From contig JAKLGM010000001.1 of assembly GCA_022710685.1 (NCBI GenBank), positions 1 to 64,000 on the forward strand: a DNA stretch of 64,000 nt, given 5' to 3'. The notes under the pieces were generated by a model. That model saw only the letters and a list, made by a program, of their open reading frames with translations, made no database searches and was not told where the DNA came from. The position numbers and the translations under genes were made by a program. Below are positions 3,217-50,918 of this stretch, piece after piece. How positions within the stretch are numbered: position 1 is the first letter of the stretch; each line of letters opens with the position of its first letter. Source of the stretch: Patescibacteria group bacterium (lineage in GTDB: Bacteria; Patescibacteriota; Patescibacteriia; Patescibacteriales; UBA12465).

Positions 3217-4287
3217 TTATTCTTCTGTCGTGGTCTCAGCCTCGCCCTTAACCGGCTCGCCGGCGTCTACTAAAGCCAAGACTTTTTCTCTAATTTCCTT
3301 GATCAGAGGCTTATTTTCCTTCAAAAATTGCTTAGCATTCTCACGCCCTGTGCCTAATTTGACATTGCCGTAAGTATAAGTGGCGCCTGATTTTTTGATA
3401 ATGCCCCTCTCTGAAGCGATATCCAAAACATCACCGGCCACCGAGATGCCTTCATTATACATAATATCAAATTCGCAAGTCTTAAATGGGGCCGCTACCT
3501 TATTTTTTACAATCTTAGCCTTGACCCTATTGCCTAATATCTTTTCGCCTTGCTTAATCTGAGCGGTCCTTCTGACCTCAACCCGGACTGAACAATAGAA
3601 TTTTAGAGCATTGCCGCCGGTTGTAGTTTCTGGGCTACCGAAGAAGACGCCAATCTTATTTCTAATTTGATTAATAAAGATAACGATAGTTTTAGTTTTG
3701 GAAACGATGCCGGTCAATTTTCTCAAAGCTTGGCTCATTAACCGGGCCTGTAAACCCATATGCTGGTCGCCCATGTCGCCTTCAATTTCTTTTTGCGGTA
3801 CCAAAGCGGCCACACTATCAACGACCACCACATCAACCGCATTGGAGCGAACTAAGGTTTCCACAATCTCTAGGGCTTGCTCGCCGGTATCTGGCTGGGA
3901 GATAAGCATGTCTTTAATATTGACGCCAATTTTGGCTGCATAATCTGGATCTAGGGCATGCTCTGCATCCACAAAAGCCGCGATGCCTCCTAATTTCTGC
4001 ACCTCAGCTACAATGTGCTGGGCCAAGGTAGTTTTACCGGAAGATTCCGGACCAAAAATTTCGATGATGCGGCCACGCGGTACGCCACCGATGCCGAAAG
4101 CTATATCAAGCGACAAACAACCGGTAGAAACAGCGTCAATATTAGTTTTGCGCACATCGCCAAATTTCATAATGGCGCCTTCGCCGAACTTATCCTTAAT
4201 CTGAGTCATGGCGGTCATAGCCGCTTCTAATTTTTTGCTGTCCTCCCTGTTCTCGGATGAAATTTTCACTTTTTTTTCTTTAGTCAT
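3217..4287 (-). CDS. recA: Recombinase RecA
   Basis: ATP-dependent strand-exchange protein for homologous recombination and SOS signalling. 356 residues, standard length. Walker A GPESSGKT near residue 80, the segment [11 protein letters not shown], the [10 protein letters not shown] Walker B region, and the L2 segment around [15 protein letters not shown] are intact. The start at 4287 ([11 protein letters not shown]) gives the usual short N-terminal extension. An extended -10 lies about 75 bases upstream. No LexA box of a known type was recognised in the leader. Confidence 0.98.
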
Positions 4288-50188: not shown

Positions 50189-50262
50189 GGGCGATTAGCT
50201 CAGTTGGTTAGAGCGCAACACTGATAATGTTGAGGTCGGAGGTTCAACTCCTCCATCGCCCA
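50189..50262 (+). tRNA. tRNA-Ile(GAT)
   Basis: Acceptor GGGCGAT/ATCGCCC, anticodon loop CTGATAA, T arm GGAGG/CCTCC. No CCA encoded. Confidence 0.96.
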
Positions 50263-50281
50263 CAAATAGCCCAAAAAGTAT

Positions 50282-50354
50282 CGCGGGGTAGAGCAGTTGG
50301 CAGCTCGCCGGGCCCATAACCCGGAGGTCGTCGGTTCGAATCCGACCCCCGCAA
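50282..50354 (+). tRNA. Initiator tRNA-fMet(CAT)
   Basis: C-A mismatch at the acceptor end (C1, A72) and three G-C pairs in the anticodon stem (CCGGG/CCCGG) mark the initiator. Anticodon CAT. No full CCA. Confidence 0.95.
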
Positions 50355-50377
50355 CATTTGTTTTGACAAATGAATAT

Positions 50378-50708
50378 GCCTCGGTAGCTCAGTGGTAGAG
50401 CAAACGACTGGATTTTCGGTCCTTCTAATAGAAATATTAGAATGCAAATCGGGTGAATTCGGGGAAATCTAATTTATCAATCGCTATTAGCGACATAATA
50501 TGACAATCCCGAGCCAAGCTCTGATTGGGTCAACAGATCAGAGAAGGTGTAGAGACTAGCGGGTGAGCCCAACAATAACCCCGCCGCGAGCGCCCGACCC
50601 CGCCCTTAATTTAAGATTAAACGGGGATGATATAGTCCAATCCTCAAAGAAATTTGAGTTCCAAGAAGGAAAATCGTTGTGTCGTCAGTTCAATTCTGAC
50701 CCGGGGCA
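50378..50708 (+). tRNA. tRNA-Phe(GAA) interrupted by a group I intron
   Basis: Exons 50378-50409 and 50669-50708. Joined, they give acceptor GCCTCGG/CCGGGGC, D arm GCTC/GAGC, anticodon stem AACGA/TCGTT with loop CTGAAAA (GAA), short variable loop, and T arm GTCAG/CTGAC. The intron falls between U33 and G34. No CCA encoded. It is the only GAA tRNA seen in the window. Confidence 0.92.
50410..50668 (+). ncRNA. Group I self-splicing intron (IC3-like), ORF-less
   Basis: 259 bases. P1 forms between exon GACT (50406-50409) and intron GGTC (50418-50421) with the required U-G pair at the splice site. P2 is an 8-bp hairpin with a GAAA loop (50423-50442). P-like AATTCGGGGAAA (50456-50467), Q-like AATCCCGAGCCAAGC (50505-50519), R-like AAGGTGTAGAGACTA (50544-50558) and S-like GATATAGTCC (50628-50637); GACTA pairs with TAGTC as P7. 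A P9 hairpin with a GAAA loop (50643-50658) and the terminal G (50668) complete it. Strong resemblance to the cyanobacterial tRNA-Leu intron class. No endonuclease frame. Confidence 0.93.
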
Positions 50709-50761: not shown

Positions 50762-50835
50762 CGGGGTGTGGCCCAGTTGGCTAAGGCGTCTGGTTTGGGA
50801 CCAGAAGATCGTGGGTTCGAGTCCCGCCACCCCGA
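50762..50835 (+). tRNA. tRNA-Pro(TGG)
   Basis: Acceptor CGGGGTG/CACCCCG, anticodon loop TTTGGGA (TGG), T arm GTGGG region. No CCA encoded. Confidence 0.95.
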
Positions 50836-50918
50836 CAAAGATAAAAACAAGAAGGCTTGATTTTTATTTAATATCGTGTTAGTATTTCTTTACTTTTAAT
50901 TAATCTATTTAAGCTATT

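Follow-up and report, generated by a model that had tools for sequence, protein, structure and literature searches.

The window analyzed here is a 64,000-nucleotide stretch from an ultra-small bacterium of the Candidate Phyla Radiation (CPR), and its tRNA-Phe(GAA) gene (50378–50708) is split by a group I intron. The 5' exon (nucleotides 1–33; 50378–50409) and the 3' exon (G34 to the discriminator A73, with CCA not encoded; 50669–50708) flank a 259-nt intron (50410–50668) that sits between U33 and G34, ends in G, and holds no ORF longer than 50 amino acids; all three lie on the + strand. The gene is part of a tRNA cluster, with tRNA-Ile(GAT) and tRNA-Met(CAT) upstream on the + strand (50189–50355) and tRNA-Pro(TGG) downstream (50762–50836). 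Joined, the exons read GCCTCGG TA GCTC AGTGGTA GAGC A AACGA CTGAAAA TCGTT GTGTC GTCAG TTCAATT CTGAC CCGGGGC A. This 72-mer (plus CCA) folds into a regular cloverleaf, which ARAGORN identifies as tRNA-Phe(GAA); in default mode it does not call the gene with its intron in place. An earlier note had predicted that removal of a 259-base segment would yield a tRNA-Phe, and its coordinates proved exact.

The strongest evidence for the exact position of the intron is an empty allele, which fixes both boundaries. A genome of the same genus (G001) carries tRNA-Ile, tRNA-Met, tRNA-Phe, and tRNA-Pro in the same order, and its tRNA-Phe is uninterrupted exactly at U33/G34. Over the 72 nucleotides it differs from the joined exons twice, at both sides of pair 29:41 (G-C against C-G). 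The 5' exon thus departs from the uninterrupted allele at a single base, which belongs to a compensated pair of the anticodon stem. The intron starts after U33 and its last base is G, matching the requirement of group I chemistry. Both the spliced cloverleaf and the empty allele of the sister genome show an otherwise complete tRNA gene with an insert in its anticodon loop. In a further genome (G028), contig C99 (locus L170) stops at position 3541, which is precisely the intron boundary at tRNA-Phe G34, as though the assembly had been broken by strains with and without the intron.

The group I model RF00028 matched 50400–50659 over its full length (model positions 1–253) with 85.7 bits and an E-value of 2.1e-20, above the curated gathering cut-off of 50, and the segment contains a P3–P9 core with P, Q, R, and S elements. 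An unconstrained MFE fold gives most of the helices (z = -2.5; 4 of 200 shuffles fold equally well). All helices are given here on the + strand. P1 (50406–50421) pairs exon GACU (50406–50409) with GGUC of the IGS (50418–50421) and places a U.G pair, U33.G50418, at the 5' splice site; it is only 4 bp long because C29 is unpaired with the IGS, and a compensatory change from C32-G to U32-A occurs in four other loci (L039, L077, L087, and L098). The UUUUC strand of the IGS (50413–50417) pairs with GAAAA of the 3' exon (50669–50673) as P10. UUUC/GAAA is invariant among the aligned introns whose 3' exon reads GAAAA; in lineages with a G37 tRNA-Phe the 3' exon reads GAAGA and the IGS CUUC or CUUU (CUUC/GAAG pairing), which speaks for P10 as well as for the splice site. 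The U.G pair and the terminal G (G50668) are common to the 53 extracted Phe introns, for which the extraction pattern demanded both.

The remaining helices rest on an alignment of 44 introns. P2 (50423–50442) is a hairpin with a GAAA loop, in which five of five tested pairs covary, and P6 (50519–50543), with UUGGG (50525–50529) in its loop, covaries in six of six. Covariation analysis also outlines the 5' strands of P3 (50450–50455; partner 50591–50596) and P4 (50458–50463; partner 50508–50513), the P8 hairpin (50598–50626), and the P9 hairpin with its GAAA loop (50643–50658), the last of which is also in the MFE fold. The 5' strand of P7, AGACUA (50553–50558; partner UAGUC, 50633–50637), is invariant in all 44. 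P5 (50468–50503), drawn from the alignment and covariation analysis, contains UCUAA...UAUGA, which we take to be a variant (C-G to U-A) of the 11-nt GAAA-tetraloop receptor; these residues and a GAAA in L9 are both present and may contact each other. Under the drawn structure, 96.8% of alignment cells are paired, compared with a mean of 81.5% in shuffled controls, which the relatedness of the introns inflates, and 47% when slid by one column, which retains that relatedness. Two-sided changes occur in 34 of 49 pairs, and the observed values exceeded those of all 500 shuffles. Each element listed in the earlier note (P1 with U-G, the P2 GAAA loop, P7, P9, and the terminal G) is thus present, and the covariance search that it recommended is the full-length match reported above. 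Removal by a protein tRNA-splicing endonuclease and ligase, instead of a ribozyme, is extremely improbable given the full group I structure, the covarying P1 and P10, and the terminal G; the U33/G34 position and 259-nt length are also unlike those of bulge-helix-bulge introns. No ORF above 50 amino acids was listed in any extracted Phe intron. Two Berkelbacteria (L090 and L100) have Phe introns of 220–223 nt in which no P9 hairpin is visible between P7 and the 3' splice site.

Between P7 and P3 lies an additional hairpin, P7.1 (50559–50584, + strand), which includes GUGAGCCCAACAAUAA (50563–50578). Its stem covaries (four of four tested pairs), its loop, GUGAGYCCCAACAAUAA, is nearly fixed, and the motif is present in 42 of the 44 aligned introns. 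The CCCAA of the loop (50568–50572) is complementary to UUGGG in L6. All 54 motif-bearing introns pair the CCC of the P7.1 loop with the GGG of the P6 loop at all three positions (G-U allowed), compared with 160 of 162 pairs in the best of 10,000 shuffles. Four variants deviate on both sides together (AGG/CCU, GAG/CUC, GGA/UCC, and GGU/GCC), and GGG is likewise missing from the corresponding place in the P6 loop of L084 and L093, the two Phe introns that have no P7.1 motif. From these paired changes we infer a tertiary role for P7.1. The same element is found next to a P7 strand in 32 viral contigs (IMG/VR, L138–L169), in which ARAGORN detected no intron-containing tRNA around the P7.1 introns; it is therefore not tRNA-specific and characterizes a broader set of group I introns. 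The P7.1 loop was dropped as a hallmark of tRNA-Phe introns because it occurs in tRNA-Asn introns and in these viral contigs.

The source genome (G000) comprises 885,608 bases in 36 contigs and is 89% complete. None of its 44 tRNA-like matches is called Phe or Asn, and no further tRNA-Phe was found at this level of completeness; tRNA-Phe and tRNA-Asn are each detected solely as an interrupted gene. The statement in the note that this is the only GAA tRNA of the window holds and extends to the genome as assembled. An intact copy could reside in the missing part, and the incomplete, 36-contig assembly leaves room for a degenerate, non-splicing intron or a tRNA pseudogene, with the functional tRNA-Phe encoded in the missing 11%. 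We consider this very improbable: the core elements are all intact, with P7 invariant in 44 introns; both exons are unblemished, and their stem change is compensated; and among relatives searched with the spliced tRNA-Phe, some of them 95–100% complete, no genome with a split gene also has a full-length copy. A weak tRNA-like match on another contig of G000 (contig C34, L063:61–119; 46.9 bits, model positions 7–64, without an ARAGORN call) is a possible tRNA remnant. In a different genome (G044:C3:46124–46397), an intact tRNA-Phe has partial copies of its own 3' half and 5' end within 200 bases, which may mark an integration site.

Taken together, the RF00028 match, the empty allele of the sister genome, and the 34 covarying pairs support the proposal of a group I intron at U33/G34 on which Phe decoding likely depends. 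With high confidence, we consider this a real and probably autocatalytic group I intron and splicing most likely essential for Phe decoding, with chemistry and expression predicted from sequence. After transcription, the intron would fold into its P3–P9 core, with contact between the P7.1 and P6 loops, and P1 (GACU/GGUC) would dock. An external guanosine would then attack after U33. With P10 (UUUUC/GAAAA) keeping the 3' exon in place, the freed U33 would in turn attack behind the terminal G and yield mature tRNA-Phe. Guanosine-initiated self-splicing, and the dependence of Phe decoding on it, are inferred in this scheme, and a protein cofactor may assist.

The tRNA-Phe intron is not a one-off. 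A pattern of about 20 specified bases, combining the tRNA-Phe exon and the IGS, was searched over 84,980 species and recovered 47 loci, 45 of which are a tRNA-Phe 5' exon with an intron IGS; the 3' exon could also be read in 42 of the 45, and the remaining three are truncated where a contig or locus ends. The last two loci (L075 and L089) are chance matches. All but one of the 45 are in Patescibacteria or in MAGs without a phylum name, and the named lineages are Moran-, Magasanik-, Falkow-, Berkel-, Peregrini-, Nealson-, Kuenen-, and Buchananbacteria. The exception, a MAG labelled Methylomirabilota (L095), bears the same tRNA-Phe intron; contig and intron alike have a GC content of 0.61, and a neighboring ORF resembles, by eye, a periplasmic CpoB/YbgF protein; the intron class may accordingly extend beyond the CPR. 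Among 380 evenly drawn Patescibacteria, 22 genomes contain the exact P7.1 motif (0 contain the reversed pattern), with about 18 loci in tRNA-Phe and 5 in tRNA-Asn. Because only exact patterns were matched, all of these counts are minimum values. A plasmid search was empty, and a phage search gave weak partial matches only.

The only detected tRNA-Asn(GUU) of G000 (contig C6, 10932–11175; L001:1453–1768) is also split by a group I intron. It is inserted after U35, measures 241 nt, has no large ORF, and belongs to a different lineage from that of the Phe intron. ARAGORN calls of Thr(TGT) or Tyr at related loci were rejected on the basis of P1 (GGCUGU/GCAGCU) with its U.G pair and the terminal G, which put the splice after U35 and thus specify tRNA-Asn(GUU). 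Many tRNA-Asn introns (L004, L011, L013, L018, L022, L118, L119, and L128) hold an ORF of 100–116 amino acids ahead of and into the IGS/P2 region. The two that were scanned matched the HNH family PF01844 at 20.2 bits, just below the Pfam cut-off of 21.4, and these ORFs are likely tiny homing endonucleases.

In a tree of 79 full-length tRNA introns, the 53 Phe introns fall on one side of a branch (support 96/84). Eight introns from the bacterium's own family cluster (96/91), and two others of that family, from G015 (L103) and G012 (L088), are placed elsewhere. Within the family, introns are scattered and most members carry uninterrupted tRNA-Phe alleles. This combination of cluster, outliers, and mostly uninterrupted alleles fits short-term vertical inheritance with frequent loss and some transfer, and the window intron looks to have been inherited in this way over short spans. 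When viral introns are included in a core-only tree, resolution is poor and the Phe introns no longer form one group, so they may not share a single origin; for the same reasons, a phage origin of the tRNA introns was dropped.

Alternatively, the intron could splice and be kept as a regulatory switch (e.g., GTP-dependent control of the Phe-tRNA supply) instead of as a neutral passenger. Streamlined genomes have retained such introns in essential tRNA genes of which they have only one, and both Phe and Asn tRNAs are interrupted in one genome, which would be in keeping with such a role, but patchy presence and clean empty alleles in close relatives fit a dispensable passenger, and we regard the switch as very improbable. 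The case shows that streamlined bacteria tolerate a predicted ribozyme in single essential genes, and such introns offer a reason for standard tRNA finders to miss tRNA-Phe or tRNA-Asn in some CPR genomes. Because a single genus includes both empty and filled alleles, intron gain, loss, and cost can be tested directly.

More broadly, we somewhat favor the view that P7.1-bearing group I introns of an uncatalogued class have come to occupy the sole tRNA-Phe gene (at U33/G34), and introns of mixed lineages the sole tRNA-Asn gene (at U35/U36), across Patescibacteria, such that the decoding of four codons would be wholly ribozyme-dependent in some genomes, and that the Phe lineage shares its P6–P7.1 contact with viral-contig introns. 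Previous work describes four bacterial tRNA genes as group I intron hosts (PMC1995217) and places bacterial tRNA introns in cyanobacteria and alpha- and beta-proteobacteria (PMC4033280). The tRNAscan-SE 2.0 paper mentions fMet and Ile2 (PMC8450103), and a study of cyanobacteria assigns very short insertions in their Arg, Gly, and Lys tRNAs to group I (PMC5733544). We found no report of a group I intron in tRNA-Phe in the open-access literature, an absence that is not proof of novelty. The suggestion that the site is unusual stands with respect to published reports but not to its occurrence, which spans dozens of Patescibacteria; tRNA-Phe, together with tRNA-Asn, joins the short list of bacterial tRNAs that host group I introns.

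Like the known introns of tRNA-Leu(UAA), fMet, Ile(CAU), and Arg(CCU), this one is a group I intron in the anticodon loop and, as is often the case among them, has no ORF; it differs in its host (Phe, and also Asn in the same genome), its insertion at U33/G34, and the presence of P7.1. A survey of CPR group I introns (PMC11270868) concerns rRNA genes and does not mention tRNA in its main text. Those introns share the host radiation and intron class but reside in 16S and 23S rRNA, often with LAGLIDADG ORFs. Subgroup IA introns likewise have an extra insertion between P7 and P3, yet with both P7.1 and P7.2 (PMC1995217, PMC4227781), whereas a single hairpin lies there in this intron.

As to subgroup, the P, Q, and R elements of this intron look IC3-like. 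IC3 introns are defined by the absence of P7.1 and P7.2 and by a P5 tetraloop receptor with a GNRA L9, and the Azoarcus and cyanobacterial IC3 introns are not known to have a P7.1 hairpin; the covarying stem and widespread motif described above are foreign to that definition, and we assign no subgroup. The P6–P7.1 contact resembles P11, a long-range pairing of subgroup IA introns. Finally, the viral-contig introns have exons and an IGS other than those of the tRNA-Phe intron, but they share the P7.1 loop GUGAGYCCCAACAAUAA and, in those that were read, a GGG run in L6.
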